From the NCBI RefSeq assembly GCF_900109195.1, contig NZ_FNZG01000002.1:938191-1002190 (forward strand): a stretch of 64,000 nt of DNA, read 5' to 3'. A model generated the notes under the pieces. That model searched no databases and had not been told where the DNA came from. It worked only from the letters and a program-made list of their open reading frames with translations. The position numbers and the translations under genes were made by a program. The DNA comes from Pseudooceanicola nitratireducens (GTDB lineage: Bacteria; Pseudomonadota; Alphaproteobacteria; Rhodobacterales; Rhodobacteraceae). Shown one piece after another: positions 1,565 to 44,006 of this stretch. Position 1 is the stretch's first letter. Each line of letters begins with the position of its first letter.

Positions 1565-1581
1565 GGGGAGGGGACCGGATC

Positions 1582-6008: not shown

Positions 6009-6011
6009 AGT

Positions 6012-6025: not shown

Positions 6026-6091
6026 CGTTCGAAAACAACAGGGCCGGTAGCGTCTTCTCAAACAGCATTCATACCTGAAAGGAGATTGAAA

Positions 6092-22078: not shown

Positions 22079-23341
22079 GACGAGGTGCCTTCGGCCACAT
22101 CGCTGCTGCTTGAGGACTATTTCGACCTTTACATCGCGAAGAAGCTCCAGGGATATACGGACGATTTCGGTGAAGAAGAAGTCCCGGATGAATTGGCAGG
22201 CGAGCGATGAAAAAACATCAGCCGGAACAACCTTGAGGTTGGTAAGGGGCTCTGGGTGCGTCTGCTGGGCAACCGCCCGTTGAGTGAGATTTCCGACAAG
22301 GATATCCGCGAAGCCAAGAAAAAAAATTCGGAAGCTTCCGGAGACCCACGGCAAGAGTTGCTCGGAAACCCGTGACCTTGATGCCCTGATCGCAACAACG
22401 GACGAAAAGGAAAAGAGAAACGTCGAGCGCGCTGTTGCAGAAGCGACGCTGTCCGGAGGTTCCGAAGCCAAGATCGAGCGCGCCCGGCTGAACAACCTCA
22501 TCCCGCGTATCCGGGTCGAGACGATCCTGAAGCACACGCGTTCCCTCAACCGGCCCGCCAAGATGCTGGTCAAGCTCGGACACCTCGACGCCAGCCCATT
22601 CACAAAGCATATGATCAGCAACAAGAGCGCAGAGGCAATGAGAAGTCTGAAGATAAGCGCGACCGTCGTCCCTGGGATGACCGGATCTACAAGTTCCTCG
22701 CGACGCCGGTGTTCCGCGGGGCGTGCGATGACGTTGGCGACCCCATGTTCTGGGCGCAGCTCATGGCGCTGCTCGGCGGAGGACGCGAAGAGGAAATCCT
22801 CCAGCTCTCACCCGAGGATTTCGAAACGACCGGCGGGATTCATTACTACCGGCTGCACAATAAGCCCGGGAACAGCATCAAGTCGGACGCTGGACACCGG
22901 CTGATACCGGTCCATCCCGAACTCGTGCGGCTCGGTTTGATCGAACTCGTCGAGTTGCGTCGCCGAGCAAGCGAGCCCCGCCTCTTCCCGGATCTCAAGC
23001 GCGGCAAGCACAAGGAAACTTTCACAGAGCTTTGGACTAAAGAATTCACCAAATACCGCCAAGCGCACAAGGTCTACTGGCGCGGTCTCGACTTCCATGC
23101 GCTCAGGACGACATTTCACCATGCGTTGATGGAAAATCTGGTGCCCGGCTACGTCAAGAGGGCGCTGATGGGCCATGAGCCGCTCGATGAGGGCGAGAAG
23201 TCCTACGCTCAAGATGGCATCTCCATGAAGACGCTCCACGGCGTGATTTCGGAAATCCACTTCAACCTCGAGCAGGTGCGCAGCCCCTTCAGCCACCGGA
23301 ACATAGGCTCCAAAGCTGCCCCCTTCCGGGTCGTCGGGTGA
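22079..23341 (+). pseudogene. Decayed tyrosine-recombinase (phage-type integrase) gene
   Basis: The frames together rebuild an integrase. A SAM-like region begins ATSLLLEDYFDLYIAKKL, then LWVRLLGNRPLSEISDKDIREAKKK, and the catalytic domain carries GGGREEEILQL (Arg), the HALRTTFHH box, the ALMGHEP box and a Tyr in EKSYAQDG. Three lesions are visible: an in-frame TGA at 22208-22210, a frameshift in the A-run near 22318-22325, and a second shift near 22620-22630. The last intact open segment is 22709-23341. The 5' end cannot be defined. It indicates an earlier integrated element here. Confidence 0.85.
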
Positions 23342-23754: not shown

Positions 23755-24256
23755 GAAGCCCTCCTGCTCTGACAGCCGACGGCGTTTGCCGTCCGTTGAT
23801 CTGCTGTCGTCAAGTTTGGCGAACGGGCGCGGCCATAATCAGCCGCGCAAGCCCGATCAGTTCCTGGGCGGGCAGCCAGTCGGCCGATAAGTTCGGAGAG
23901 CCCTTTGCATTTTAGCCTCAGAGGCTGTCCGAGATTTGTATTGAACCCTCAAGCCCGCTCAGCGCGCGACGAACATGGCCGGTTCGTTGCCGGTCATTTT
24001 AGTAGGGGCAACAACGGCATCCCGCCGCTCCCGTCCCTTCAAATGGCTGCCGCCAGCCGCGCATTTGAGCCTTTGTCAGTGGTGTTCTGGAACAGCTCCC
24101 TTGGGTCCGCTCGATTGCCAGTCGAGCCTGACGCCTGCCTTGGACTTGACCTCACTGCCTCCAGTCGGTGACCCATGATGTGGATGGCGCCACGGCCAGG
24201 TATGGCCGTCAAGCGCTGCCAGCGGGGTGCGCCAGCAGCGCCTGTGGCATTCCTGC
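23755..24256. other. Gap with possible DUF5681-like remnant
   Basis: No intact gene. On the + strand around 23945-24000 a frame reads ARDEHGRFVAGH, resembling the start of DUF5681-type proteins of alphaproteobacterial islands, but the usual continuation is lost. On the minus strand 23815-23910 reads LPAQELIGLARLIMAA with a stop but no start. Both look like debris. Confidence 0.35.
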
Positions 24257-24649
24257 CTACGCGGCCACGCGGCGTGACCCGGCGGTTTGGGCGGCAATCA
24301 GCGGTTCGAGCGCATCACGCAATCCGTCGGTGAGTTCGCAGATCTCCTCGACGATCGGATCGGCTGGATCGATCGCCGCGAACCGCGCCGCCTCTTCACG
24401 GGTTTCGTCGTGGACATTCTCGAGGGACAGAAGCTCGAGAAGTGCCGCGAGTTCGGATCGCGTGCGCCGGGCAGGACTGATCCCGGACGTAAGACCGTCC
24501 AGGGCATCGAGCGAGAGGCGTGCCCCCCGGCTCCCCCCGAGAAGCGCCGCGGCATTGATCAGAGCCTCCCGATGGGAAGCTGCGAACTCCCTGAGGGGAG
24601 CGAAAGGGTCATCGGTGGTGAAAGTGTCGGGGCGGATGTGGTCGAACAT
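24257..24649 (-). CDS. Hypothetical protein (130 aa)
   Basis: Unknown small protein, mostly helical, with an acidic middle (LLSLENVHDETREEAARFAAIDPADPIVEEICELTDGL by composition). The start FDHIRPDTFTTDDP follows an ATG preceded by GAGGACG. It lies downstream of the double-recombinase module on the same strand, beyond a large hairpin. Similar in character to the 119-residue protein to its left. No function can be assigned. Confidence 0.6.
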   Translation of the reverse strand: MFDHIRPDTFTTDDPFAPLREFAASHREALINAAALLGGSRGARLSLDALDGLTSGISPARRTRSELAALLELLSLENVHDETREEAARFAAIDPADPIVEEICELTDGLRDALEPLIAAQTAGSRRVAA

Positions 24650-24733
24650 GACGTCCTCCAGTTCGGTGGTCCGGCTCCTGGCCGGGTCAAGATCGTCCCT
24701 TCCTCACTTTCGTCCTCATCCGCGCCAATCGGG

Positions 24734-24783
24734 CCGGGTGTCCGATCAGGCCCTCACAGGGAGGGGCCTGACCGGACACCCGG
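24734..24783. repeat. Large palindrome downstream of the recombinase pair
   Basis: Arms of 20 bases (24734-24753 and 24764-24783; CCGGGTGTCCG at the outer left, CGGACACCCGG at the outer right) match at 19 positions, with a 10-base loop that has further CCCTC/GAGGG pairing. Imperfect complementarity continues outward into CGCGCC-type sequence. No T-run follows on the minus strand, so it is a poor classical terminator. It lies 114 bases beyond the second recombinase stop and pairs in position with the palindrome at 29560. Confidence 0.75.
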
Positions 24784-24896
24784 CCATCGGCGCGCCATTC
24801 AGTTCCTCTGCCGTATGGTTGCGTTGCCGAAGTTTCCGGGCTGTGCACTTCTGCTGACGAGACTTCTCGTCGCCTTTTGACAGCCCGGATGCCTCT

Positions 24897-26375
24897 TCAC
24901 TTTATCGACTTCCGATGAAACCTCGTTTGGGCTCTGCTCGTGATTGCCCTGCGTCGCAGATTTCCCAGTTTCATTCGACCTGCGTTTCTGCGGGTCGGGC
25001 TCGTGTCGACCGACAGCGCGGCGGCGCTGCTCTCCGCGGCCTCACGCAGCTTCCGGGAGGCCACGATCTGATCGGCGCGCTGATGATACGCAGGCGTCAC
25101 GGCATCGCTGCGGTGGTTGAGGATTATGGTCGCAAGTGCCGCTTCGTCTGGGGCCGTGGCGACGATGAAGTTTCCGACCGAATGGCGGATCGCGTGCGGT
25201 GTGACCCGAACTCCGAAGAGCGGCTCGGTGAAGTCACCCAGGTTTTTCGAGAGTTGTGCGGCTTTGATCGGGCCGCCACGCTCGCCGACGAGCAAGCGTG
25301 TTTCCTCTCGCGCCGCGACGACGGCACGATGCAGACCGACGTAACGGCCAATGGCGTCGGTCAGCGTTGCACTGAAAGCTCGCCTGTCGATATCGCCTTC
25401 CTTTGTGCTCGAACCATCGAGGAAAAGCCCCGTAAGATCGTCCAGTAGACCGCTTCGCAACTCCACCTCGGCGCAACTGGTGATGCGGATCGGCGCCTCG
25501 GCAAGCAGGATCATCATCAATGCGGTCCGCGCTTTCGTGTGTGCCGCGACCAAGGCTCTTCGGTTGCGGGCAGCAGCATGGAGTGCATCGGCCTTGTCGA
25601 GTAGTTGTTGCCCGGCCGCCCGTAGCTCGGCGGCGTCGATGGCGCGCGATGCATTCCGAGACCCGTGGTAGTTTGCGAGCTTTTTGAGCCGATTACGCGC
25701 GGTCATCAGCCACGCCCAGGATCTCTCCGGTCGCACTGCGGCGGCAAAGCCGGCCAGACCGGCCACATCTATGGCAACGCCTCCAAGGCGACGTTCGCCG
25801 CTTTCCACGCGGGCCTGGTCCTCTCGGAGCTTGGCTCGGAGAGACTTAGGCGTGATATCAACAGCCAGCTGTCGTGTTCGGCAGTAGTCGAAATGCAATG
25901 CCGCTCCTTCAAGACGCCGTTTGATCGTGCTTGGGGCCCAAGCCTGAACGAGGATGCCGTCACCGAGCCCGGCCTCGTCGACATGAAGGAGCGGCATCGC
26001 GGCATCACGCCAATCGTCCGGAAACCTGGCCAGGTTGCGTGCGATCATTGCACGCAATTGGACGCGGGGGTCCTGCCGCAAGGTCCCATGGTAGTCATCC
26101 GCATAAAGCGACGCCGCCGCATCCGGGAATGCTATGGCCAGCGCCTGGCGCACCTCGTTGCGCAGCGCTCGTGTCATGTGTTGGGTGCGCTCCAGCCACG
26201 TCTGCCGAGATACGGCCCGGGCATCAACTCCGAGGTCATCCGCGATCTTCAACCAACGCCCTAATGCACTGCCCAGTCGCTTCCGTTGAGACTCCGAGAG
26301 TTGGCGACGCTCAAACCGGGTCCGAAGGTCCTCGGGCCAGCTTGACCGCGGCAGGGTGAGACTGTGCTTCGGCAT
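24897..26375 (-). CDS. Tyrosine recombinase, second of a coupled pair (492 aa)
   Basis: Site-specific recombinase with a long N-terminal DNA-binding part and a C-terminal catalytic domain: Arg in APIRITSCAEVEL, the box TPHAIRHSVGNFI (H-x-x-R), then ILNHRSDAVTPAYHQRA with the candidate Tyr nucleophile in PAYHQ. The ATG at 26375 is one base after the stop of the larger recombinase, with AAAGGAAA before it, so the two are translationally coupled. A longer frame to 26429 exists but lies inside the first gene. The His of the usual GH box is kept as NH. Two-recombinase units of this kind occur in Tn554-like or RIT-like systems (comparison by layout only). Confidence 0.85.
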   Translation of the reverse strand: MPKHSLTLPRSSWPEDLRTRFERRQLSESQRKRLGSALGRWLKIADDLGVDARAVSRQTWLERTQHMTRALRNEVRQALAIAFPDAAASLYADDYHGTLRQDPRVQLRAMIARNLARFPDDWRDAAMPLLHVDEAGLGDGILVQAWAPSTIKRRLEGAALHFDYCRTRQLAVDITPKSLRAKLREDQARVESGERRLGGVAIDVAGLAGFAAAVRPERSWAWLMTARNRLKKLANYHGSRNASRAIDAAELRAAGQQLLDKADALHAAARNRRALVAAHTKARTALMMILLAEAPIRITSCAEVELRSGLLDDLTGLFLDGSSTKEGDIDRRAFSATLTDAIGRYVGLHRAVVAAREETRLLVGERGGPIKAAQLSKNLGDFTEPLFGVRVTPHAIRHSVGNFIVATAPDEAALATIILNHRSDAVTPAYHQRADQIVASRKLREAAESSAAALSVDTSPTRRNAGRMKLGNLRRRAITSRAQTRFHRKSIK

Positions 26376-26376
26376 G

Positions 26377-28647
26377 TCATATTTCCTTTCCGGTCTGCGG
26401 ATCGACGAACTTGAAAGCAACGGTTGCAAGCACTTGCCGCGACTGGCGCTCCAGCAGGTGGATGTAGCGGCGTTGCGCGATCAACCTCGAAACCTCGGCG
26501 TAGTAGGATTGGGTCGTTTTCAGGCGCTTGTGACCGAGAATTTCCTTGACCAATGCCATGGCGGACGGGTCCTGATCGAGGATGACCTTTCCGGCGAGGT
26601 GGCGCATCACGTGCAGGCAGAGGTCCAGCCCGCAATGCTTCTTCATGTGCTTCTTGAAGCTGTTGTTGAGCTTGGCTCTGGTGAAGTAACCCATACCGGG
26701 GGCGTAGCCGCCATTCTCGATTTCGCGCCCGCCGGCACCTGGAAATAAGTGAGGGTTGTCGGGGGAAGCTTTCGCCCGTCTCCGGGCAATCGGCAGGAAG
26801 TGCTTGATGTAGTATTTCAGCATTCGGACGGTTTCACGGTCGATCCGGACGTGGATCTCCTTCAGAGTCTTGCCCTCGTGCGCAGGAATGATCAGCGTGC
26901 CCTCTCCGTCACCTTCGGGCAGGATAAGGTGACGATCATCCCCGACATGGCGATATCGCGCGTGGTTCGTGCGCCGGACCGGCGCCACGTATTGCCCCAT
27001 TCGAGCGATGAGCGCGTTGCGTGCGAGGGCCACGTGGGTGGACCGCGGCTTGCGACCCTGCCGGATCGGGGCGCATGCCAGGCTCCAAAGGACGGAAGGA
27101 GCCTCGAACCAGCGCTTGAGCTGAGATGTGTCGGCAAATTTCGCGAGCATAGTGGAATGGCGAGTGCCAATGCGTCGTTCGGCATAGACGCGCTTGAAGC
27201 TTCCGTCTGCCGACCGCTTCATTGCGATAACGCTTGGGTCGAGCTGCCGTTTTAACTCCTCGACTTCCGCCAGCCGACTGGGGTCGATGGCAAGCGCCCG
27301 CCCGACGGAACAGAGGGCTTCCACCAAAGTGTGTTCGTAGCGGCCTTTCACCTTGGGGTCGAAGACGCGCCCCTGCGACTCCTCCCTCTTGCGCCGCGCC
27401 GCGCGGACAGAAGCGACCAAAGCCGAAACAATGGACCGACAGAACAGGTCTCCGAGGGCCATGGGTTTCGATTGCACCCGCGGGTCGGATTCCGCAGCAT
27501 GCCATGCGCGTTTGACTGCATCCCGCCAGTTCTTGTGAGTGCCGGGCTCCAAGATCGGTGCGGCCGCCCTCTGATCTGAAACCGGGGTCTCGAAGGCGAT
27601 GCCCAGATCGGCGTATTCCGGGTCTTCGTCCGGGACAAGGCCTCCCCAGTCGCCGGGGTTCCGGACCGAGATCGCCGTCGCAAGGTATGCGTCTACAGGC
27701 GTGCGAATTCCTGGAGGGACGGCGGTCCATGCCACGTTCTGCTGGCGGTGCACGGGAGCACCGGGTAACCGCAGGTGCGGGCCCTCGAAACCGTCTTCGA
27801 CTGTGTCGTTCCACCGCCGAAAGGCGGCGCGTAGCTTCTCGATATAGGTCGGCGAATGTGTTGCCAGTTCCATGGCGACGAAGGCCTCGATGAGCGTGTC
27901 ATCAATCTCTACCGGGGCAATCCCCTGCCGCGCGCAGAACCCGGCAAGGCGTCGTAGGATCGCGACGGCACTCTTCTCGTGTTCCTTCATCTGGTGGTCG
28001 AGACTCGCGAGAATCTTTTGCCACTGCGAAGGCAGGGTCGCGGGGGCCGTCTCCCGCATGCCGGTGCTTAGCGGATCAACGAACCGCACTACCTTGCGAA
28101 TGAGAGTCCGTTTGTTCTCGAGTGACTTCATGCTCGCGACACCGAAGGTCTCCGGAGTAGCGGTCCGCAGGAACGGCTCGATTGCACTGGCAGTCGCAGG
28201 GAGATCCTCGAGTGCGCCATTTTCCGATGCAGCGAGAGCTTCGAGCGCCGAGACGGCACGGCGCAACTCGTCGCTGCCGAGCCGGAGCCCAGCCGCGGTC
28301 GCCGCATCTGCAAGAGTCGGAAGTCGTGCGCGAAGGCGCTGAGCCAGCCAGCGCGTGGGCCGATCGTCCCAAGCCCGCAAGGCGCGGCGCAAGTCACTTG
28401 CGACCTGCAACCAGCGTTCCCCCACCTTCGCCTTCGTATCGGCATCGGGCGACTCGACCATCTGCCGGAGTCTTTCCACTGGCACCTCGCCGCCATCCCC
28501 CATGGCAGCACAGACGGTCGCCAGGCTTGCGAGAGTCGCGGTCCGGGTGGCCCCTTTCATGGTGGTTAGCCAGAGGCACCGGCGCAGGTCTGCGGTATCG
28601 CCGTTCTCGGTTGCGACATCGGTGCTTGCAAAAGTTTCGTGCTTCAT
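26377..28647 (-). CDS. Large tyrosine recombinase, first of a coupled pair (756 aa)
   Basis: An unusually long tyrosine recombinase. The C-terminal catalytic domain shows LHVMRHLAGKVIL (H-x-x-R), EILGHKRLKTTQSYYAEV (GH box and Tyr). The N-terminal 450 or so residues are helical and of unknown role, including a core-binding-like stretch HSPTYIEKLRAAFRRWND. The start MKHETFAST at 28647 is preferred; the frame stays open to 28884 but overlaps the HTH gene. Stop and next start are one base apart. A third recombinase, as in RIT elements, is not present. Confidence 0.85.
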   Translation of the reverse strand: MKHETFASTDVATENGDTADLRRCLWLTTMKGATRTATLASLATVCAAMGDGGEVPVERLRQMVESPDADTKAKVGERWLQVASDLRRALRAWDDRPTRWLAQRLRARLPTLADAATAAGLRLGSDELRRAVSALEALAASENGALEDLPATASAIEPFLRTATPETFGVASMKSLENKRTLIRKVVRFVDPLSTGMRETAPATLPSQWQKILASLDHQMKEHEKSAVAILRRLAGFCARQGIAPVEIDDTLIEAFVAMELATHSPTYIEKLRAAFRRWNDTVEDGFEGPHLRLPGAPVHRQQNVAWTAVPPGIRTPVDAYLATAISVRNPGDWGGLVPDEDPEYADLGIAFETPVSDQRAAAPILEPGTHKNWRDAVKRAWHAAESDPRVQSKPMALGDLFCRSIVSALVASVRAARRKREESQGRVFDPKVKGRYEHTLVEALCSVGRALAIDPSRLAEVEELKRQLDPSVIAMKRSADGSFKRVYAERRIGTRHSTMLAKFADTSQLKRWFEAPSVLWSLACAPIRQGRKPRSTHVALARNALIARMGQYVAPVRRTNHARYRHVGDDRHLILPEGDGEGTLIIPAHEGKTLKEIHVRIDRETVRMLKYYIKHFLPIARRRAKASPDNPHLFPGAGGREIENGGYAPGMGYFTRAKLNNSFKKHMKKHCGLDLCLHVMRHLAGKVILDQDPSAMALVKEILGHKRLKTTQSYYAEVSRLIAQRRYIHLLERQSRQVLATVAFKFVDPQTGKEI

Positions 28648-28849
28648 TGTCTGGTTCGTCCTGTTTGATTGGTCCTGCGACCCGGTTTCGAGGTCCTGGC
28701 GCGTTCCGGCACACGCCGGCGGGACCTCGAGATCGGGCGACAGGGGCAGTCGCGGCGCGCCGTGGTCGGTCATCTGGCGACAAGGGATGTCATCTGCCGC
28801 CACCGGGGGGATTGGGGTGGTCTGCATGCCAACGCCGTGCAGTCCAACC

Positions 28850-29116
28850 TCACTCCCCGGGTTCCGCAACCTTATGTTTTTCAATAATTTCTTCTGGCGC
28901 GCCCGAAATGCGGCAATAAAGCCGCCAGCTCTCCATCATTTCTTCGGCGATGCCTTGGAATTCCCATATGTGTAGCGCTGTGACTGTCCACCGTCCGGAC
29001 GCCCTCGATCCACGCAGGCGACCGCTATCGAGGTAACGGAGCACCTGGCGCTCGGAGCGCGCCAAGACCAGGCCGGCGTCAGCTGCGGTGTAGGTCTCGT
29101 CTGGAGCAACGATCAT
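28850..29116 (-). CDS. Excisionase-like HTH protein (88 aa)
   Basis: MerR/Xis-type winged-helix: YTAADAGLVLARSERQVLRYLDSGRLRGSRASGRWTVTALH (read as a pattern). Such proteins bind att-site DNA and steer recombination toward excision, or act as small regulators. The ATG at 29116 overlaps the stop of the preceding HTH gene (ATGA). About 200 bases separate it from the large recombinase on the same strand, so it is probably co-transcribed with it. Confidence 0.75.
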   Translation of the reverse strand: MIVAPDETYTAADAGLVLARSERQVLRYLDSGRLRGSRASGRWTVTALHIWEFQGIAEEMMESWRLYCRISGAPEEIIEKHKVAEPGE

Positions 29117-29469
29117 GGCCGTGCCTCCCCGCTCACACAGCACTGAAGCTCGAGCGGCAACCAACGCACAGATCGGCCCACACGGAGAGATTTGAGTTCA
29201 CCACGCGCCGTGCGTGCTCGGACATCGTCCGGCGCACAGCCGAGGCGTGCCGCGACTTCGTGCAGGGTGAGCAGTGCCTGCGGTCGGTCGCCGTCGAAAC
29301 ACATTTGAAGAAGCGCGGGCAATTCTCCGACAGGGAGAGCGAGGGTCGCGCCGATGCGGATCGCGCTGAGATCACCTTTGTCGACCAATCGCGTCACCGT
29401 TCGTGGAGAGACGGCAAGAAGCCTGGCGGCCTCGGCAATCGAGATGGGCTGTATAGTGCTGATTTTCAT
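29113..29469 (-). CDS. Tandem excisionase-like HTH protein (118 aa)
   Basis: Contains two helix-turn-helix units: SIAEAARLLAVSPRTVTRLVDKG (about residues 10-32) and LTLHEVAARLGCAPDDVRARTARG in the second half, each followed by a wing-like strand. Start ATG 29469 (MKISTIQPIS) is chosen because upstream residues look non-coding; the ribosome site is weak. It is the first gene of the leftward module HTH-HTH-recombinase-recombinase. A large perfect palindrome lies 90 bases upstream. Confidence 0.75.
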   Translation of the reverse strand: MKISTIQPISIAEAARLLAVSPRTVTRLVDKGDLSAIRIGATLALPVGELPALLQMCFDGDRPQALLTLHEVAARLGCAPDDVRARTARGELKSLRVGRSVRWLPLELQCCVSGEARP

Positions 29470-29559
29470 TGGCTTTATCCATGTCTTGGTTGGGTTTGAG
29501 ATGGACATAGGGAAAATTCGCCCGATCAAAAAACACGTCGCCGACAAGCAGCCAATCCA

Positions 29560-29613
29560 CCTGACAGACATACGGACCCTCCCCGTAGGGAGAGGGTCCG
29601 TATGTCTGTCAGG
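29560..29613. repeat. Perfect 21-bp-arm palindrome upstream of the module
   Basis: The left arm 29560-29580 starts CCTGACAGACATACGG and the right arm 29593-29613 ends CCGTATGTCTGTCAGG, perfect inverted copies over 21 bases. The 12-base loop can form a small inner stem. It lies between the divergent HTH gene (start 29469) and the RepA-like gene (start 29725), so it is not a terminator; it could be an operator, recombinase site or replication structure. Confidence 0.85.
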
Positions 29614-29724
29614 CGGCCATCGAGAAAATTTCGCCGTGCCGTTTTTTTTCTTCCAGCGGTCGGACCTAAGTCCCTTCTGACAGCAAGTCGGACATTCTCA
29701 CGAGCCGCCAAAAGGACACCCGCA

Positions 29725-30822
29725 ATGCACAATCATCGACACCCCGAAGTGAACCCGAAGACGCCGGAGGGCCTCTATCGGGACGCCCGCACCCACCGAC
29801 CGAATCTGGTATGGAACTACGCCGTGAAAGGCTGGTTAAGGCGCGCGGAAACATCTGTCCTATTCGGACCGAGCAACTGTGGAAAATCTGCCTTGGTATG
29901 CCATCTCGGCAACTGCATCGTCACCGGAACGCCCTACTTCGGTGCACGAGTGCGGCAAGGTATTGTCGTCCATGTCGGCGCAGAGGCCCCTACGTCCGTG
30001 CTCGACCGAATGCAGGCGCATGGAATCGGAGAGTCTCCAACGACCTCGCCTTACATTGTTCGCATGGAACCTGTGAACCTTTCGGATCCCGAGCAAGTGG
30101 AACAATTCATTGCCGAGCTCAACAACCTGGTTCGTGATTTTGGCCAAAAAGTCGTTCTGATCGTCTTCGACACCCTGGCTCGGTCGATCACTGGCGTCGA
30201 TGAGAACTGCGCCGCGTCCATGACCGGCGTTGTCAATGCTGCCGAGAGGATCGCGCGGCGCAGCAACGCGCATGTCATGCTGGTGCACCACACCGGAAAA
30301 GATACGGATCGCGGCGGCCGTGGAAGCTCTGCCCTGCGCGGTGCTGTCGACACCGAGATTTCGCTCATGCCGCAGAAAGCAGAGGCAGTGCGCGTCCTTC
30401 AGGAAAAACAACGCACGATGCCGAAGGCGGGAGACCATTACTTTCGAACCGAGAGCTTTGTCCTGGGTCATGATGAGGATGGTGAAGACCGCACTACGGT
30501 GAAAGCTGTCGAGAGCCAGAAACCGTCAGACAAGGAAGCTGTGGGCAAGCCGACGCAAGCATCGAAATATGACACGGCGGTCCTGACCGTCCTCTACATC
30601 CGCGGCCTGACCGGCAAGCGCGGCGCAGAGACTTTCAAGGCACGCGATATCCTCGAATGCGTGCCGCCAGAGATATTCGGGGGCATGTCGGACGAAAACA
30701 GTATGGCGACCATCCGACGCGTGCTCGGCCGGTTGTCCGAGCAAGAGGCCCCGGTTGTCGAGAAAGTCGGCAGCGACTGGCGCCTTCGCGGTGCCGACGG
30801 CACCGCCTCGTCTGGAACGTGA
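29725..30822 (+). CDS. RepA-like AAA ATPase (365 aa)
   Basis: RecA-fold ATPase of the AAA_25/RepA hexameric-helicase type found on plasmids and integrative elements. Walker A GPSNCGKSALV, Walker B KVVLIVFDTLARS, and the motif MLVHHTGKDTDRGGRGSSALRGAVD are visible. The C-terminal 100 residues look like a winged-helix domain (TIRRVLGRLSEQEAPVVEKVGSDWRLR). ATG 29725 has AAAGGA eight bases upstream; the longer frame reaching to 29602 runs from the palindrome and is unlikely. It may support replication or priming of the island in a circular state, or be a regulator. Confidence 0.85.
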   Translation: MHNHRHPEVNPKTPEGLYRDARTHRPNLVWNYAVKGWLRRAETSVLFGPSNCGKSALVCHLGNCIVTGTPYFGARVRQGIVVHVGAEAPTSVLDRMQAHGIGESPTTSPYIVRMEPVNLSDPEQVEQFIAELNNLVRDFGQKVVLIVFDTLARSITGVDENCAASMTGVVNAAERIARRSNAHVMLVHHTGKDTDRGGRGSSALRGAVDTEISLMPQKAEAVRVLQEKQRTMPKAGDHYFRTESFVLGHDEDGEDRTTVKAVESQKPSDKEAVGKPTQASKYDTAVLTVLYIRGLTGKRGAETFKARDILECVPPEIFGGMSDENSMATIRRVLGRLSEQEAPVVEKVGSDWRLRGADGTASSGT

Positions 30823-30881
30823 CGGGCGGAATTTCCGGTCACGCCCACTTAGCCAATATTCCCATCAACCGCAGCCATTAG

Positions 30882-30902
30882 ACCGGGTTTGTCATTCCCG
30901 GT
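30882..30902 (+). terminator. Short hairpin after the RepA-like gene
   Basis: ACCGGG (30882-30887) pairs with CCCGGT (30897-30902) across a 9-base loop, about 60 bases after the stop; only TTG follows, so terminator strength is doubtful. Confidence 0.3.
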
Positions 30903-30929
30903 TTGACCAACCGAAAGACAAAGTCCTTA

Positions 30930-31066
30930 TGACCAAGACCCTCGCTACGCAAAACCAAGGCGGCCGACCGAGAAGCTATTCACCGGATCTCGTCCATCAG
31001 ATCGTCTCTGACATGCTGGAGAACGGCAAAACGGTCGTCGACATTGATGCCGCCGCTGTCAGGGAG
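30930..31066 (+). pseudogene. 5' fragment of an unknown gene cut by an IS3-family element
   Basis: A frame starting MTKTLATQNQGGRPRSY and continuing SPDLVHQIVSDMLENGKTVV runs directly into the left inverted repeat of the IS at 31067. The rest of the gene is not found beyond the right end, where a different gene fragment (TcmP) appears. The GRPRSYSPDLV start suggests a small DNA-binding or KfrA-type protein, but this is a guess. Confidence 0.6.
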
Positions 31067-31094
31067 GTGGACTTGCCCGGAAAAAGTGGAGAGC
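31067..31094 (+). repeat. Left terminal inverted repeat of the IS3-family element
   Basis: Begins GTGGACTTGCCCGG, then AAAAA, then GTGGAGAGC. It matches the right end at 23 of 28 positions. Confidence 0.85.
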
Positions 31095-31361
31095 ACCAAC
31101 TGAGGAACCAGGAGGTGTTCTATGGGAAACGGAAACAGACCTACGCCGGAGTTTCGGCGTGAAGCAGTCAGACTGGCGCTGACAAGCGGTCGGACACGGC
31201 GCGAGATCGCAGAAGATCTGGGCATTGGCCTATCGAAGTTGACGCGATGGCTCAGTCGTGAACGGGGTGCTGGTGAGCCGGTCGAGGCGTCGATGGACCT
31301 GCACGCCGAGTTGAAGCGGTTACGACGCGAGAACACGGTTCTGAAGCAGGAGCGTGACATC

Positions 31362-32954
31362 CTAAAAAACCGTTCTGGGCCGCAGCCCGCCTGTGCGGGG
31401 TAGCAACAGCTTGTGCTATGCTCGTAGCGAAGGGCAGTTGCCGATGGCTTATTGGTGGGCTGGACCCCGTTAAAAAACGTGGCACAAGGGCTGATGCGCA
31501 CTTGAGAGTGGTGACGGCGCGATAGCGGCGATCCCGGTTAGGAAGATGAAGAACTTGCATGGCCCACGCCCTTCGTTCCGAACGGAGGAGATGTCATGCC
31601 CAGACCTACGACCGGCGGCCACCCGGACTTGAAGATGGTCAATCCCGATGCGGCCGCGATCGACATCGGCTCGACGATGCATATGGCAGCGGTGAATCCG
31701 TCCAGCTGTGACATGTCGGTTCGCGCCTTCGGCACGTTCACCCAGGATCTGCACGACCTCGCCGACTGGTTCCGGTCTTGCGGCGTCACCAGCGTGGCCA
31801 TGGAATCCACCGGTGTCTACTGGATACCGGCGTTCGAGATCCTCGAGGCCCGAGGCTTCGAGGTGATCCTCGTGAACGCCCGTTATGCCAAGAACGTGCC
31901 CGGCCGCAAAACCGATGTCAGCGATGCAGGATGGCTGCGCCAGTTGCATTCCTACGGCCTGCTGCGTGGTAGTTTCCGCCCCGAAGCCGAGATCGCAACC
32001 CTGCGTGCTTACATGCGCCAGCGCGAACGTCTGACAGAGTATGCGGCCGCGCATATTCAACACATGCAGAAGGCGCTGATGGAGTTGAACTTACAGCTGC
32101 ACCATGTCGTCTCCGACATCACCGGCGCGACCGGCATGAAGATCATTCGCGCCATCGTCGCGGGTGAGCGCGATCCGGAGGTGCTGGCCGCTTACCGGGA
32201 TGTGCGATGCAAATCCTCGCCGGAGACGATCCGGGCAGCACTTGTGGGCAATGACCGGGCGGAACATGTCTTCGCTCTGGCGCAGTCGCTTGACCTTTAT
32301 GACTTCTACAAAGCCAAGATCAAGGAATGCGATCAGCGGCTGGAAGCGGCTGTTGCCGCCCTCTCAGTCAAGGGAGGGGACGATCGGCCGCCGCTGCCGA
32401 AGGCCCGGATCAAAGGCAGGCAAGTCAATGCACCGGCCTTCGACGTGCGAGCAGCGCTCTACGGGGTATTGGGAACCGACCTGACCCAGATACATGGCCT
32501 TGGTCCTTCGCTGGCGCTGAAGCTGGTGGCTGAGTGCGGCACTGATCTGCGCGCGTGGAAGACGGCAAAGCACTTCACATCCTGGCTCTGCCTGGCACCC
32601 GGCAACAAGATCTCCGGGGGCAAGCTTCTGTCGTCGAAGACGCGGCGCTCCTCAAGCCGGGCGGCGGCCCTGTTGCGATTGGCCGCCACAACCATCGGAC
32701 GCAGCGACACGGCCCTGGGCGCCTTCTATCGCCGTCTCTCGGCGCGGATCGGAAAGCAGAAGGCGGTGACGGCCACCGCCCGCAAGATCGCCGTCCTGTT
32801 CTACAACTCCATCCGGCATGGAATGACTTATCAAGATCAGGGCGCCGCAGCCTATGATGAGCGACACCGCCAGCGCGTCCTCGCGAACCTCCAGCGACGC
32901 GCCAAGACCCTGGGCTACGCCTTGGCGCCCGTTTCGCCTGAACCGGCTGTTTCT
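31362..32954 (+). mobile_element. IS110-family insertion sequence (about 1.59 kb)
   Basis: Contains one DEDD transposase gene and no terminal inverted repeats, as usual for the family. Ends are deduced from how IS3 orfA is rebuilt: keeping one CT dinucleotide (31362-31363 left, 32953-32954 right) restores the OrfA frame with the usual ILRKAAAFFA. A second reading that places the junction within the A-run (left end about 31367) also restores a plausible ILKKAAAFFA. The left non-coding end is about 230 bases; the right end is almost absent. Confidence 0.8.
31380..31595 (+). ncRNA. Candidate bridge RNA region of the IS110 element
   Basis: IS110-group elements encode a structured bridge RNA in the non-coding left end that pairs with target and donor DNA (established for IS621). 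This 216-base non-coding stretch sits in that position before the transposase. Visible structure includes the CCCGC-CTGT-GCGGG hairpin at 31386-31399 and a GCTA/TAGC stem-loop downstream. RNA limits, promoter and guide loops cannot be defined by eye. Confidence 0.4.
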
Positions 32955-32957
32955 TAG
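31596..32957 (+). CDS. IS110-family transposase (453 aa)
   Basis: DEDD RuvC-like recombinase with an N-terminal catalytic half (AAIDIGSTMHMAAV first Asp, SVAMESTGVYWIPAFEIL with Glu, KTDVSDAGWLRQL with the Asp pair) and a C-terminal transposase_20 domain containing the active Ser region IHGLGPSLALKLVAECG and LAPGNKISGGK. ATG 31596 is preceded by GGAGGAG. The stop codon TAG (32955-32957) lies at or beyond the inferred right boundary, so under the CT-core model the target DNA supplies it. The transposase itself looks intact. Confidence 0.92.
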   Translation: MPRPTTGGHPDLKMVNPDAAAIDIGSTMHMAAVNPSSCDMSVRAFGTFTQDLHDLADWFRSCGVTSVAMESTGVYWIPAFEILEARGFEVILVNARYAKNVPGRKTDVSDAGWLRQLHSYGLLRGSFRPEAEIATLRAYMRQRERLTEYAAAHIQHMQKALMELNLQLHHVVSDITGATGMKIIRAIVAGERDPEVLAAYRDVRCKSSPETIRAALVGNDRAEHVFALAQSLDLYDFYKAKIKECDQRLEAAVAALSVKGGDDRPPLPKARIKGRQVNAPAFDVRAALYGVLGTDLTQIHGLGPSLALKLVAECGTDLRAWKTAKHFTSWLCLAPGNKISGGKLLSSKTRRSSSRAAALLRLAATTIGRSDTALGAFYRRLSARIGKQKAVTATARKIAVLFYNSIRHGMTYQDQGAAAYDERHRQRVLANLQRRAKTLGYALAPVSPEPAVS

Positions 32958-32993
32958 GAAAGCAGCAGCCTTCTTCGCGAAAGACGCAAGTCG

Positions 32994-33860
32994 ATGAGCT
33001 TCGCTTTCATAGAGGCGGAGAAGACCAGCTTTCCTATCCAGAGGATGTGCAGGGTTCTCGGAGTCAGCCAGAGCGGGTTTTTCGCCTGGAGGGACCGCCC
33101 CGCCTGTCATCGCCAGCGGCAGGACATGATCCATCTGGCCCACATCCGAACGGCCTTTGCGCTGTCGAACGGGACCTATGGCAGTCCCCGCATGCACCGC
33201 GATCGCGTCGATGAGGGGCACCAGATCGGGCGGCACCGCACGGCACGACTGATGCGCGAGAGCCAGTTGATCGCGCGGCAAAAGCGGCGCTTCAAACGGA
33301 CGACGGACAGTGAACATGCCTGGCCAGTCGCGCCCAACCTCGTGGCACAAGACTTCGCGGCGGACGGTCCGGACAGGAAGTGGGGGGCGGACATCTCCTA
33401 CATCTGGACGGCAGAGGGCTGGCTTCACCTTGCCATTGTCTTGGACCTCTTCTCGCGCCGCGTCGTCGGTTGGGCCACGAGTGATCGCTTGAAGCGTGAC
33501 CTCGCCGTCGAAGCCCTGCGCCATGCTCTGGCCGCTCGCAACCCTGAGCCAGGACTGGTTCACCATTCCGACCGCGGATCGCAATACTGCTCGGTGGACT
33601 ATCAGGCGCGGCTCCGCAAACGTGGCATCTTGATCTCGATGAGCGGGCGCGGGAACTGCTACGTCAACTCGATGGTGGAAACGTTCTTCAAGACCATCAA
33701 GTCGGAGCTGATCTGGCCGGTCACCTGGCAATCCCACCAAAAGGCGGAAAACGCCATCGCCAGACACATCGACGGGTTCTACAATCCCGTCAGACGCCAT
33801 TCATCGCTCGGCTTCCAGAGCCCGATCGCATTCGAGCGAAAGGCCCGCGAAGTGAGCTAA
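32994..33860 (+). CDS. IS3-family OrfB transposase (DDE integrase core)
   Basis: A 288-residue OrfB with the HTH_21-like start VSQSGFFAWRDRPACHR and an rve integrase core. The DDE residues are visible as WGADISYIWT (D), VHHSDRGSQYCS (D) and NSMVETFFKTIKSE (E), with the final R-R-H-S-SLGF box. Its ATG overlaps the TGA of orfA in IS3 style. The protein itself looks intact, but its OrfA partner is broken. Confidence 0.92.
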   Translation: MSFAFIEAEKTSFPIQRMCRVLGVSQSGFFAWRDRPACHRQRQDMIHLAHIRTAFALSNGTYGSPRMHRDRVDEGHQIGRHRTARLMRESQLIARQKRRFKRTTDSEHAWPVAPNLVAQDFAADGPDRKWGADISYIWTAEGWLHLAIVLDLFSRRVVGWATSDRLKRDLAVEALRHALAARNPEPGLVHHSDRGSQYCSVDYQARLRKRGILISMSGRGNCYVNSMVETFFKTIKSELIWPVTWQSHQKAENAIARHIDGFYNPVRRHSSLGFQSPIAFERKAREVS

Positions 33861-33862
33861 AC

Positions 33863-33890
33863 GCTCTCCACGAAACCCGGGCAAGTCCAC
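33863..33890 (-). repeat. Right terminal inverted repeat of the IS3-family element
   Basis: Ends CCGGGCAAGTCCAC and begins GCTCTCCAC; an inverted copy of the left repeat with five central mismatches. It starts three bases after the orfB stop. Confidence 0.85.
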
Positions 33891-36797: not shown

Positions 36798-37562
36798 TTA
36801 CGTCCTCTCGGTGTGGGTCTCGACGATAAAGGCAGCCAGGGCGCCGGCCGAGTTCACGGCCAAGGCTGCATGGCGCGCGGCCGGCTTCACGGGAGCTTTG
36901 CCTCCCCGGCCATGGCTGTCCGAGAGGCGGTTCCGCAGCGTGCCGAGACCATTCACCAGTTTCATAGCGCCGCCCAGGATCGCCTTGATCGGCTCCTCCG
37001 CGTGCTGGCTCGGCGCGAGGTTCAGCTCCTGTGCGACCATGCCGTAGAGCTTGGGGAGATCTTCCTTGTCGGTGTAGGGGGTGCCGACCTCATCCAGGAC
37101 GTGCTTGCAGACGGTCTCCAGAAGCGTGCGTGCCGCAGTGATGGCACCTTCTGGATCCGTAGACCGCCTGTTCAGTGCGCGTGCCCAGGCTTCACTTACA
37201 CCATCGGCAGAGAAGGCCGTCATCGCGTCTGTGACTGTCGCATCTCCTGGTGTCCGATAGGGCGCTTCAAGGTAGTCGATCAATGGCGTGAAGGCCTCAG
37301 TGATCAGCTGCCGCCGACCGGCATAGTTGCCACTTTCCTCTTTGATGTAAGGCCAGAATGCCGAGAGGGTCCGATACTTCCGAACGAAGTGTGGCAGCCG
37401 GTCCCGGATATCCGGGTCATTCATAAATTCTGTCCGGAGGATCCGGTAGAACGGGTCTTCGTGGCTACCGCCAGTGGCCGCGCTGATCATGATACCTTCG
37501 AGCATGGAAACACGTTCCGCCAGGGTGTCCGGCAATTCTGCCTCGATATTGTGATACATCAT
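36798..37562 (-). CDS. Abortive-infection family protein with Abi_C domain (254 aa)
   Basis: The C-terminal 120 residues match the abortive infection C-terminus domain: GAITAARTLLETVCKHVLDE, KEDLPKLYGMVAQELNLAPSQH, ILGGAMKLVNGLGTLRNRLSDSHGRG, and the final HAALAVNSAGALAAFI. The His in DSHGRG is the conserved feature. The N-terminal half is an unrecognised helical region. The ATG at 37562 overlaps the stop of the upstream Cys-cluster gene (ATGA), so the two are coupled. A role in phage-triggered growth arrest is inferred from the family. Confidence 0.82.
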   Translation of the reverse strand: MMYHNIEAELPDTLAERVSMLEGIMISAATGGSHEDPFYRILRTEFMNDPDIRDRLPHFVRKYRTLSAFWPYIKEESGNYAGRRQLITEAFTPLIDYLEAPYRTPGDATVTDAMTAFSADGVSEAWARALNRRSTDPEGAITAARTLLETVCKHVLDEVGTPYTDKEDLPKLYGMVAQELNLAPSQHAEEPIKAILGGAMKLVNGLGTLRNRLSDSHGRGGKAPVKPAARHAALAVNSAGALAAFIVETHTERT

Positions 37563-38371
37563 ACCCCTTCCATCAGCCCCCGGATCTCGGTGGTATCCGG
37601 CATGATGATAACCGAACCCTCGTAGGTCGTCTCCCAGAAGTCGTATTCGCCGAGATGCGTGTCCCACTTACCGGCGACCATGACGTTGCCCGACATCTTC
37701 ATTTCTTCGTAGCCCGCGCCCTCGGCCAGGCCGCGAAACCGGCTCCGAATGCGGTCCGGGCTAATCGCCTTTACGCTTTCCTGGAGAAGCGCGAATCCCT
37801 CTCGGATCGCGTCATTGACGAGTCCTCGCTTCCGGAGAATTTCCTCGATCCTGCGCTCGATCAGCTTCTCGTCAGCCGCCTTCAAGATCGTTGCCAGGCC
37901 GCCGCAAGCCACTGCCAACTTCGGAGGCTTCCTTCGCCGAAGGGCCGGGAAGATCCTCTCGAGTTCTTCCATGACCTGTTGCAGGGATTGCTCGATCGGG
38001 ATGAGGTCACGGTCAAGGATCTCTATCAGTTGTGGCACTCCTTCGAAGACAGCTCCGGAGATCTTGCGCTGTTCTGCCTGGGCAACGCGCCGGTCGAGAT
38101 CCTTCTCTATCTTCGCGACGGTGACCTTGTCCGTGAACTCCACCGCGCAGCAATGGTCGCAGAGAGCCTTGCTGACCTCGGGGAGGAGGGCGAAACACCC
38201 CTTCCGGTGACGTTGCCGTTGCTTGCAGAATGAGCACCGGACCATCTTTTCGGAGAGGTAGCCCTCCAACATGGCCGGGCGAATACCCGGTTCGACTTCA
38301 AAAACGACGCCCGGCTGTTGGTCCGGGTCGGTGATGACGAATTCTTCGTCGGGAGGCAGCGCCTCGCTCAT
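37559..38371 (-). CDS. Cys-cluster (probable zinc) protein coupled to the Abi_C gene (270 aa)
   Basis: Not a recognised family. A metal-binding-like cluster spans residues 46-75: C46-x2-C49, C59, C71-x2-C74-C75 with nearby His (HRKGC, CDHCC). Next comes a charged helical section (residues about 80-210) that may be coiled, and a C-terminal beta-rich segment GNVMVAGKWDTHLGEYDFWETTYEGSV. ATG start at 38371; its TGA overlaps the next gene. It could be the sensor or regulator of an abortive-infection unit. Function unknown. Confidence 0.75.
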   Translation of the reverse strand: MSEALPPDEEFVITDPDQQPGVVFEVEPGIRPAMLEGYLSEKMVRCSFCKQRQRHRKGCFALLPEVSKALCDHCCAVEFTDKVTVAKIEKDLDRRVAQAEQRKISGAVFEGVPQLIEILDRDLIPIEQSLQQVMEELERIFPALRRRKPPKLAVACGGLATILKAADEKLIERRIEEILRKRGLVNDAIREGFALLQESVKAISPDRIRSRFRGLAEGAGYEEMKMSGNVMVAGKWDTHLGEYDFWETTYEGSVIIMPDTTEIRGLMEGV

Positions 38372-41613: not shown

Positions 41614-43755
41614 TTAGCCGAGAGCGCGGAAGTGCTCAACAGCCTGGCGCTTGAGCGGATGCTTCGGAAGACGCATCGTCCGCTCGTCTGTAAGTTCTTT
41701 GAACGAAGACGCCAGCGTGCACAGCTCGATAGGTTCGATCTTCTGCCCTGTGGCAGCGTTAATCGTCGCGAACTTGCGCGGCGCCTTTCCGTCTTCACTG
41801 ACCACAATCTCTGAGGCAGTCCCGTCATCGGCGAGCGTGACGTCAACGGACAAGGGCGAACCCTTGCTCAGGCCGCACGACAAGATGATGGGAAAGCCGT
41901 GCTCCTCTGAAAATCCGATCTCGAGTGCGAATTCGGCTTTGTCTACGGCCTCCTTCAGCTCCTTCGTCCGATGCGCTGTGTAGTGAATGTTCATGATCGA
42001 CCCTGTCCGGTGGCCGGCGATTGCCTGGCGCTGTCCGTCGGCAACGTCAGCGGCTCGCAAGAGGGAATGGAATGTCTTGCGAAGCGCATAGAAGTCTTCG
42101 TCGGCGTCACCAAGATCAAGGCGGTTCAGGATGATGTAGTATGCCTTGCTGAACGGCTCAGTCACTTTTCCCACCGCCGAACGATTGGCGGCTTCCGGGA
42201 AGAGGAGGGGACCATGAGCATCATCGAGGCCCTTCCACCATTCGATAAAGCCGAGATCGAGAAGGATCTGGGGAATGGGGACAACACGGTATGCGTCGTC
42301 CGTTTTTCCCAGTTGAGCTGCACCCTTAGCGATAGCGAAGCAGTATTCCCCGTTGCGCCAGATGATGTTGCGCCGCTCCAAGAGGAGTATTTCCTTAATC
42401 CGGCTGCCGATCATCATTACGATGAGTGGCACCCAATAGAATGCGTCGCGGATGATCACGTTTCCCGGGCGCCAACGACGGCTCTCAGAAAAGCAACCGG
42501 CGTAGATCGGAGAGGTCAGCAACTGGCTCAGTCGCTCTTCGGTCCAGGGCATGCGGAGCTTCGACTGGACAACCCGCAGGTAGAGCGGATCTTGTTTCTC
42601 CTCGCCCAGCGCCTTCACGATCCGTTCGACATCGCGATAAGAAATCACCTCTGGCATTTCCGTGCAGCCGAGTGCTCGGGCGCCTTTCATCAAGCGGTTC
42701 AGGCCGTCTCGGTTGCGCTTCAGCGTGCTGTTTGTCAGCCGGGGCACGAGCTGTTCCGACAAGAGGGCCCGTTTCTCCAAATCGGACAAATCGTCCCTGT
42801 CCCGAAGCGCTTCAGTCGCGATGTAGTCCGCCTCATCGGCTGCCTCAATCTCGTCATCCTTGGTGACCAGCGATTTGCTTGGGTCCTTGGGAGCATCTGG
42901 ACAGAACCGGTTCTTACCGTGCCCTTTCCCGTGGCTCTTCGGCAGTCGAGACATCCATTTGAAGAATACCGTCTGTCGATCCGTCGTGATCGTCGCGACT
43001 GGAACATCTCCAAAGAACGCGAGCGCGACCTTTGCGATCGCATCGATGTTCCCCTTCATGTCGCGGGTAGGATAAAGTTCGAGCGTCTTGGCCCAGGCTG
43101 CACTCAGGGTCACCGGCTTCGTTCGGACGAAATCGTCGACTGGCAGTGCCGAGAAACGCGCGACGGAGTCTGCTGCTTCCGTGACCGCGTCGTATCCGTC
43201 GAGGGCCTTCACTTCGAGATCGAGAATGTCACGGGCCAAATCAGTCACCCGGCGTCCCAGGCTCGACGGGAGATCTTCGGGCAGAGTGATGCCAAGGCGG
43301 GCAGCGGCATCCCGCGCGATCTGGTCCACAAGTCGAAAGTCGTTCTTACGGGCGTGGTGACGCATATCGTCACCTTGGGCCGTCAGGCTCTGGATCTGGA
43401 GATCGAGCTCATCGTCGTCGATGGGCTCGCCTGCGTTCTGCGCGTCGATGATGCGGTTGAGTTCAGCGCGCAGGATGTCGGATAGGATAACCTTGATCTG
43501 CTCTGCGGTGATGGCGGTTGCGGAGGTGTTTGTCATTATTTTTCTCTCTTCGCGTTGTAGGACTGAGAGGAGATGCGCCGCCCGGCACATCGCCTCGGTC
43601 CGAAAATTCGTCCGAAGGGAGAGGCACAGAAATTTTCCCGTGCATTTTTTCTGATTTTTGACGCTACGTAATCTTTTTCTGAAGTAGTAGGTCGACCCTC
43701 TGAGAAGAAGATAGGGCCCTGGCGAACGCCGGGGACGGCGGGTCTTCGATAGCAT
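41614..43755 (-). CDS. Tyrosine-recombinase integrase at tRNA-Gln (713 aa)
   Basis: Large phage/ICE-type integrase. The N-terminal part has PYLLLRGSTYYFRKRLRSV and CLSLRTNFRTEAMCRAAHLL (arm-binding DUF6538-like). The catalytic domain has Arg in MMIGSRIKEILLLERR, the box FYALRKTFHSLLRAAD, AIAGHRTGSIMNIHYTAH with the candidate Tyr. About 90 extra residues follow. The frame is open to 44007, through the tRNA, so the true start must lie inside; MLSKTRRPR at 43755 gives a family-like N-terminus. MRSGNAV at 43884 is an alternative. It sits 177 bases from the tRNA 3' end, as is typical of tRNA-targeting integrases. Confidence 0.88.
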   Translation of the reverse strand: MLSKTRRPRRSPGPYLLLRGSTYYFRKRLRSVKNQKKCTGKFLCLSLRTNFRTEAMCRAAHLLSVLQREERKIMTNTSATAITAEQIKVILSDILRAELNRIIDAQNAGEPIDDDELDLQIQSLTAQGDDMRHHARKNDFRLVDQIARDAAARLGITLPEDLPSSLGRRVTDLARDILDLEVKALDGYDAVTEAADSVARFSALPVDDFVRTKPVTLSAAWAKTLELYPTRDMKGNIDAIAKVALAFFGDVPVATITTDRQTVFFKWMSRLPKSHGKGHGKNRFCPDAPKDPSKSLVTKDDEIEAADEADYIATEALRDRDDLSDLEKRALLSEQLVPRLTNSTLKRNRDGLNRLMKGARALGCTEMPEVISYRDVERIVKALGEEKQDPLYLRVVQSKLRMPWTEERLSQLLTSPIYAGCFSESRRWRPGNVIIRDAFYWVPLIVMMIGSRIKEILLLERRNIIWRNGEYCFAIAKGAAQLGKTDDAYRVVPIPQILLDLGFIEWWKGLDDAHGPLLFPEAANRSAVGKVTEPFSKAYYIILNRLDLGDADEDFYALRKTFHSLLRAADVADGQRQAIAGHRTGSIMNIHYTAHRTKELKEAVDKAEFALEIGFSEEHGFPIILSCGLSKGSPLSVDVTLADDGTASEIVVSEDGKAPRKFATINAATGQKIEPIELCTLASSFKELTDERTMRLPKHPLKRQAVEHFRALG

Positions 43756-43931
43756 CTTTGCCGCGTTGCAGGCGCCTGACGCAGGCCTGTCGATGGAGCG
43801 CGGTTCCGCAGGATGTGGCCCATCCTGTGATACAGCTTGTGGCACAGTCTCAGATTTCTGTGACACAGCATTTCCGGACCGCATCCTTGCGACCCTATAT
43901 TCTTGGGCTTTTTTGTTCTGGTGGGAAAACA

Positions 43932-44006
43932 TGGCTGGGGTGGTAGGATTCGAACCTACGGTACACGGTACCAAAAACCGCTGCCTTACCGCTTGGCTAC
44001 ACCCCA
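43932..44006 (-). tRNA. tRNA-Gln (anticodon TTG)
   Basis: On the minus strand the cloverleaf reads TGGGGTG acceptor, D-arm with AGCCAAGCGGTAAGGC, anticodon arm GCGGT-TTTTGGT-ACCGT with TTG at positions 34-36, T-arm GTAGG-TTCGAAT-CCTAC, then CACCCCA, discriminator G and an encoded CCA. All stems pair, with one G-T in the anticodon stem. The 3' end points to the integrase and island, so it is the likely attachment gene. Confidence 0.97.

Follow-up and report, generated by a model that had tools for sequence, protein, structure and literature searches.

A two-recombinase module of Rhodobacterales islands with a compound site inside its operon

What would an operon of two unlike tyrosine recombinases and two small helix-turn-helix (HTH) proteins do inside a genomic island, and on which DNA would it act? 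The question was raised by a gene quartet in a 64,000-nt stretch of Pseudooceanicola nitratireducens (RefSeq assembly GCF_900109195.1, contig NZ_FNZG01000002.1, positions 938,191 to 1,002,190), hereafter the window, in whose numbering positions are given unless another sequence is named. Open reading frame (ORF) coordinates and domain matches confirmed the co-oriented set HTH118, HTH88, Rec756 and Rec492 described in the initial annotation. The ‘ATGA or one-base junctions’ attributed to it there were correct for HTH118/HTH88 (4-nt overlap) and Rec756-Rec492 (1-base gap) and wrong for HTH88 and Rec756, which are 202 bp apart. This gap contains the best-kept non-coding DNA that we examined, a compound site composed of a dyad (palA), a 10-bp lattice and a second dyad (palB), all of which the earlier reading had overlooked. 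We tentatively interpret the module as a self-contained site-specific recombination system of the tyrosine-recombinase class, with its target site inside its own operon and a resolution function like that of the rst and IRS sites of transposons, an interpretation to which we give slightly less than an even chance.

The compound site and its distribution

Rec756 has full-length relatives in Limimaricola, at loci L001 (78% identity), L002 (77%) and L003 (75%), and likewise in genomes G759 (72%), G222 (48%), G721 (46%), G083 (43%) and G309 (30%), whose loci are L088, L058, L089, L059 with L060, and L061, respectively. The G083 genome carries one relative with an in-frame stop in Rec756 (L059) and a second copy cut by the contig end (L060). 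The order HTH88-Rec756-Rec492 was shared by the window, L001, L002, L003, L088, L058, L089 and L059, and HTH118 with a divergent ATPase gene was restricted to the window, L001, L002, L003 and L088. The compound site was kept in 8 of the 9 modules with upstream sequence, down to 43% recombinase identity, and HTH88 was present in all 8 of these. The site alignment (A3) leaves out L060, whose contig starts inside Rec756, and L061, which was checked separately; alignments A4 and A6 comprise only the five close copies.

In the 8 aligned modules, the palA spacer has the asymmetric consensus G[CG]GTNGG with 5 of 7 columns invariant, and the inner 10-bp arms have 12 of 20 columns invariant. By this alignment the spacer is kept at least as well as the arms, which is unusual for a plain operator. 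The outer arm of palA overlaps the end of HTH88, the dyad was unsplit in 8/8 copies, and its core occurred once in its own genome at up to 3 mismatches.

Between palA and palB, a GNC motif recurs seven times at intervals of exactly 10 bp (Table 1). Over the 8 modules, the G was found in 56/56 cells and the C two bases on in 54/56, with GTC in 30/56. The alignment has no gap over columns 62-119 (58 columns), where all 11 invariant columns fall on lattice positions; when 11 invariant columns were placed at random, an equally complete class arose in 41 of 200,000 draws. An alignment-free count in the 300 bp before Rec756 recovered 7/7 lattice positions in six modules and 6/7 in the other two, with little difference in location among the eight, while 2 of 426 blocks of 300 bp in the window, which may include the site itself, reached at least 6 positions. 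Both the residue-class test and the alignment-free count were framed after the lattice pattern had been seen.

The arms of palB evolve fast and remain paired. Among the five close copies, 85% of cells were paired compared with 76% in shuffles, and 10 of 28 pairs had changed on both sides, a level reached in 0/500 shuffles and approached by no slid version. This pattern, together with a consensus fold energy of −86 kcal/mol, would also be compatible with palA and palB acting single-stranded, as DNA or RNA hairpins, in an mRNA leader switch or as folded recombination or priming sites like integron attC. We regard this as very unlikely, given that a regular spacing of exactly 10 bp is hard to account for in RNA, that palA showed no covariation among the five close copies, and that no Rfam match to palA or palB was obtained in 24000-31000 at E ≤0.1. 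Both dyads are weaker in the window than in most relatives, neither scoring 9 or more, which may explain why the compound site was overlooked.

The initial view of an unusual recombinase set was correct. Rec756 is rare: it was found in 4 of 394 family genomes (E ≤1e-20), in 1 of 22 genomes of its own genus (its own genome) and in 2 of 385 genomes of a class sample, one of them its own. At up to 1 mismatch, palA occurred in exactly the same 4 of the 394 family genomes and in 0 of the 390 others; seven further matches at 2 mismatches were set aside, a reversed control having given eight. What is directly observed, then, is the genes, the compound site, how well that site is conserved and, within the sample, its restriction to genomes with the module.

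Outside chromosomes, 50,697 phage records yielded no match to Rec756 at E 1e-5, no relative of it was confirmed in the scans of viral contigs, and palA was not found there as an exact pattern. Plasmid searches returned nothing for Rec492 and, for Rec756, 10 weak records in the catalytic part, the best covering 30% of the query. On these searches a phage or plasmid origin of the module was rejected.

Two strains carry two modules each, namely Limimaricola sp. G21655-S1 (L002 and L003) and G083 (L059 and L060), which would provide natural site pairs. More distant recombinases of 560-680 aa near others of 360-440 aa were noted at L008, L010, L039 and other loci in other Alphaproteobacteria, which may be of the GInt or SE type described below.

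Table 1. Positions of module genes, sites and adjoining features in the window
Feature	Position	Strand	Description
palA	28806-28858	minus	outer 6-bp arms, inner 14-bp arms, 7-bp spacer GCGTTGG at 28829-28835
10-bp lattice	28739-28801	minus	seven GNC; G at 28801, 28791, 28781, 28771, 28761, 28751, 28741
palB	28675-28743	minus	second dyad, just upstream of Rec756; fast-evolving covarying arms, conserved centre
HTH118	29113-29469	minus	HTH_17 / excisionase-BldC-like protein
HTH88	28850-29116	minus	excisionase-like HTH protein
Rec756	26377-28647	minus	large tyrosine recombinase
Rec492	24897-26375	minus	second tyrosine recombinase
palC	29557-29616	no strand	between ATPase and HTH118 genes; 28-nt arms, 93% complementary, 4 nt apart
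palD	24732-24785	no strand	between co-oriented genes; 22-nt arms, one mismatch, 10-nt loop, score 19
AAA_25 (RepA-like) ATPase	29725-30822	plus	divergent from operon; Pfam AAA_25 9e-32 (scanned from 29602)
orf130	24257-24649	minus	small downstream protein; homologues in L058, L088, L089 (39-52%)
Remnant of island integrase	22094-23338	plus	C-terminal part; opposite to operon

Module proteins and the proposed reaction

The proteins of the module were then related to known recombination systems, which are described here and below after portions of the cited papers. Rec492 matched the Pfam Phage_integrase model (27.8 bits against a cut-off of 27.1; 2.5e-6), while the Rec756 match to the same model (24.3 bits, 2.9e-5) was under that curated cut-off and its match to a PHROG integrase family reached 2e-12. 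Residues R297, K325, R397, H421 and Y430 of Rec492 were invariant in 9 aligned sequences (A2, without L059), as were K593, R682, H706 and Y715/Y716 of Rec756 in 8 (A1, without L059 and L060). Both enzymes thus retain key residues of the catalytic R-K-HxxR-H-Y signature, the first arginine of Rec756 being unassigned. Fold matches of their AlphaFold models were XerA/Cre for Rec492 and XerH/XerA for Rec756.

HTH118 contains two HTH units and matched HTH_17 (4e-14), an excisionase model (excise, 1.6e-15) and HTH_BldC (1.3e-6, the last under its cut-off), in agreement with the excisionase/MerR-like class first proposed for the HTH proteins. HTH88 had no match in Pfam or NCBIfam and a weak one to the PHROG excisionase family phrog_1840 (3.1e-4). 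The HTH_17 proteins BldC and RdfS line up head-to-tail along DNA; BldC does so at whiI on direct repeats of 9 bp and on smeA-sffA with one molecule per turn (PMC5859096, PMC11963761). The module resembles these winged-HTH proteins and Xis in the excisionase and BldC matches of HTH118 and in a predicted head-to-tail binding about one DNA turn apart. It differs from the BldC/RdfS cases in a GC-rich GNC motif at exactly 10 bp, from which binding is predicted, and in that HTH118 has two HTH units whereas HTH88, which accompanies the lattice, is only weakly recognised by the models. Being present in all 8 lattice-bearing modules, HTH88 is the candidate lattice binder.

Among known sites, the compound site is closest in layout to rst and IRS. 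The rst site lies in an intergenic region by the recombinase gene and has two pairs of inverted repeats (PMC7157771). As in TnpS/TnpT-rst (Tn4651, TnXax1) and TnpI-IRS (Tn4430, Tn5401), the site here is intergenic, adjoins a tyrosine recombinase gene and combines an inverted-repeat core with accessory repeats, a layout found in 8 of the 9 modules with upstream sequence, with the palB covariation established on five. Unlike rst and IRS, the module has two tyrosine recombinases per operon, HTH proteins and a seven-fold 10-bp lattice, and its resolution activity is a prediction. No Tn3 transposase was seen among the neighbouring ORFs scanned, a scan that took in part of the island genes. By its layout, the module would work most like an rst/IRS-type system.

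We propose that Rec756 and Rec492 would bind and exchange strands at palA, with the asymmetric 7-bp spacer setting the direction, and that HTH88 would assemble head-to-tail along the lattice, as BldC and RdfS do on DNA, to build and time the complex. HTH88 might also control the recombinase promoter as a built-in second role, and palB would serve as an accessory inverted repeat. Because the site is intact in every chromosomal copy seen and single in its own genome, the reaction would probably take place between two directly repeated copies, as in multimers or replication products of the excised island. The role would then be the upkeep of islands inserted by a separate integrase, as rst and IRS serve Tn4651- and Tn4430-type transposons. 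Protein binding, strand exchange and multimer resolution are what we infer from the genes and the site. In five modules the gene transcribed away from the operon is helicase-like, and in L059 it is replication-protein-like.

The main rival, which we consider possible and on balance doubtful, is that palA, the lattice and palB form only a transcription control region for rec756-rec492, where HTH88 (and others) would repress or activate while the recombinases act elsewhere, e.g. at the island ends. The site lies directly upstream of the recombinase genes, BldC acts on promoters through direct-repeat binding (PMC5859096), RdfS coordinates rdfS/intS expression (PMC11963761), and res sites themselves contain promoters (PMC7157771), all of which would suit a regulatory site. 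On the other hand, conserved palA arms, an asymmetric spacer and a covarying second dyad exceed the needs of an operator, a scan for sigma-70-type promoters found no consensus promoter in 24500-30000, and the ends of the G759 island belong to another integrase (see below). Head-to-tail binding by HTH_17 proteins and the rst-like layout therefore favour an internal resolution-type recombination site.

Several points weigh against recombination at palA. Neither a recombination product nor a second site nor a rearranged palA was found, with one copy only in its own genome, and everything seen would also fit a complex promoter-operator region. Conservation of the spacer would be unneeded if only identical copies recombined, and two recombinases plus two HTH proteins exceed what rst/IRS resolution systems use. 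The first catalytic arginine of Rec756 could not be pinned down, the HxxR histidine is Q in both L089 recombinases, and the AlphaFold models were modest in confidence (pTM 0.38 and 0.43). When conservation was examined with a general periodogram, 634 of 5000 shuffles scored as high, which is not significant, perhaps because conservation comes in sharp spikes. Finally, the ninth module, L061 of G309 (30% identity), is without HTH88, palA and lattice (best 3/7 positions) and has only a short palindrome before the recombinase gene.

Outer palindromes and island bounds

The initial annotation had centred on two large palindromes flanking the module, and these were substantiated. In our scoring, palC (29560-29613, 22 pairs, 10-nt loop, score 22) and palD were the two highest-scoring palindromes of the window; since 20 simulated sequences of 64 kb contained on average 0.05 palindromes scoring at least 13 and none scoring at least 14, both are far beyond chance. 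The upstream one, palC, lies between divergent genes as described. As to the statement that neither is a good terminator, the terminator scan reported none at either place, though with a loop limit of 8 that is below their 10-nt loops, and no T run directly follows either of them by eye.

Their relation to the module proved different from that proposed. Palindrome palC was found within −149 to −79 of the HTH118 start in 5/5 modules with HTH118 and in 0/3 modules without it (450 bp before the first HTH gene); because it tracks HTH118 in this way, it is best read as an operator region of the divergent ATPase/HTH118 pair. The suggestion that the palindromes may be protein-binding sites was apt. 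Palindrome palD is not conserved: of 8 other modules, 6 have no palindrome scoring at least 11 there, the one in L002 is weak (score 11, at +172) and that in L059 (score 17, at +15) is unrelated. No arm pair was common to palC and palD among the 25 longest inverted repeats listed. Homologous modules without the palindromes, the outcome named beforehand as decisive against a bracket, were thus found, and the bracket is refuted. The suggestion that the palindromes mark element ends fell with it, palD being absent from that place in relatives and palC tracking only the HTH118/ATPase half. The G759 island, which is bounded by tRNA-Asn repeats beside a separate integrase, likewise gives it no support.

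A view of both palindromes as generic intergenic repeats or terminators, with a module that has no special site, would suit palD, which is unconserved and between co-oriented genes. It is highly improbable in light of the fixed place of palC before HTH118 (5/5), the confinement of palA to module-bearing genomes and the missing T runs. In the Rfam search given above, palC matched only a miRNA model, whose gathering score of 90 is far above the 27.1 bits obtained.

The island of G759 is 25.7 kb long and has 21-bp direct repeats of the tRNA-Asn 3' end at its bounds, with the module internal and palA intact. Its own integrase is a separate protein of 668 aa beside tRNA-Asn, with a PHROG integrase match at 9e-11 and no Pfam match. 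Because the island ends are tRNA-Asn repeats beside this separate integrase, the module did not make the present G759 insertion. L003, L060 and L059 each have a relative of this integrase a few kb or less from the module, the L003 one next to tRNA-Asn, and the window retains a remnant 58% identical to residues 254-668, of which 22709-23338 matched a PHROG integrase at 5e-11. L002 has a different HTH-plus-integrase pair.

The window module lies in a foreign segment between a gene ending at 20958, which we take to be NnrS-like, and tRNA-Gln (43932-44006, minus strand). In G680, a genome of the same genus, only 334 bp separate the two. No exact 14-mer of a tRNA-Gln attachment (att) repeat was found in the window, and a search of 20000-43900 gave, under the limits applied, three 12-mer matches with 2 mismatches and nothing 14 to 25 bases long. 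For the tRNA-Asn att sequence, up to 6 mismatches were allowed, and its sole match in the window island, with all 6, was at tRNA-Gln itself. In G222, comparison with four relatives located the left island edge near 66,064. Beyond it, as far as the contig end at 123,554, the match to the 12-kb stretches from these relatives did not resume, and no empty site was obtained.

These bounds bear on whether the module, like GInt, SE or Tn554, integrates and excises an element of its own, with the compound site as attachment site. A large and an ordinary tyrosine recombinase (YR) with small DNA-binding proteins do resemble the SE and Tn554 sets (PMC10214605), and in G222 about 1.6-6.5 kb separate the module from the island edge, with neither of two window integrases used as probes matching in the 20 kb examined. 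We nevertheless consider it unlikely, since palA was unsplit in all copies, the tRNA-Asn island that encloses the G759 module has an integrase of its own, relatives of that integrase accompany L003, L060, L059 and, as a remnant, the window, and a different integrase is found in L002.

Gene content, order or position also separate the module from each of these families. GInt (ginABCD) has three recombinases and the small DNA-binding GinD at the island 5' end beside att, with varied cargo (PMC5385486). The module likewise joins several tyrosine recombinases and a small DNA-binding protein in one operon, in islands of varied cargo, but it has two recombinases, placed after two HTH genes, and is internal in G759. 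Strand-biased circularizing elements (SE) and Tn554 share with it the combination of one ordinary and one large YR with a small protein (PMC10214605). The SE order intA-tfp-intB-srap was not found, judged by gene order alone, and no Tfp or TnpC equivalent was recognised, none having been searched for by sequence. Tn554 places tnpA-tnpB-tnpC at the element end, whereas the order here is HTH118-HTH88-Rec756-Rec492 and the module is not terminal in G759. The RIT archetype, a multi-recombinase operon as well, has three tyrosine recombinases of 315-410 aa (PMC10214605) in contrast to two of 756 and 492 aa, and its 34-bp terminal inverted repeats have no counterpart in palC and palD, which are unlike each other and are not element ends. 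The module thus fails defining features of RIT, Tn554, GInt and SE, and membership in Tn554 or RIT, clusters to which the layout was initially likened, fails on gene content and position. No description of the module was recognised in the literature searched, at the level of titles and abstract openings, which does not prove that there is none.

A single integrase is the usual explanation for islands that carry anti-phage systems between bacteria. At least one island here, and probably several, keeps in addition a recombination module of two enzymes that has a highly ordered site of its own. We advance with considerable doubt the fuller proposal that two unlike tyrosine recombinases act at an internal core dyad controlled by a seven-unit winged-HTH filament and a structure-selected second dyad, serving islands after insertion through multimer resolution, copy control or regulated rearrangement. 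Such a site predicts a ten-base ladder of seven bound subunits adjoining the recombination core and would tie BldC/RdfS-type filaments to a defined DNA lattice. The module may reveal how islands stay single or are controlled once chromosomal.

Neighbouring genes and cargo

The divergent AAA_25 ATPase, with orthologues at 56-68% in L001, L002, L003 and L088, also matched PHROG primase/helicase families and is probably a replicative helicase. In L059 (6399-8813, G083), the gene divergent from HTH88 takes its place and weakly resembles phage replication proteins. PADLOC gave no match for either recombinase, the ATPase or orf130, one of the small ORFs downstream of the operon.

Library matches identified defence-type cargo at three loci: BrxA and BrxC beside L003, a methylase resembling DrmMI in L088 and an AbiJ-like (Abi_C) gene at 36798-37667, in the same foreign segment as the window module. 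The restriction-type ORFs next to L058 owe their names solely to inspection. The BREX genes of L003 (BrxA and BrxC, 1483-6212) are near the module on the ATPase side.

Further integrases were observed at the tRNA genes. In G759 (C4 24377-52148, L113/L088), two integrase islands appear to be stacked at tRNA-Asn, the second integrase (24377-26284, PHROG 5e-20) lying just outside the 21-bp repeat. In the window, a large integrase (41614-43980, PHROG 1e-15) abuts tRNA-Gln, where G688 has related DNA from window position 43310 onward. Between the module and this integrase, an element with 28-nt inverted repeats (31067-33890, 82% complementary), presumably IS3-like, truncates the ORF adjoining the ATPase, and a transposase gene that we assume to be IS110-like is nested inside it at 31596-32957.

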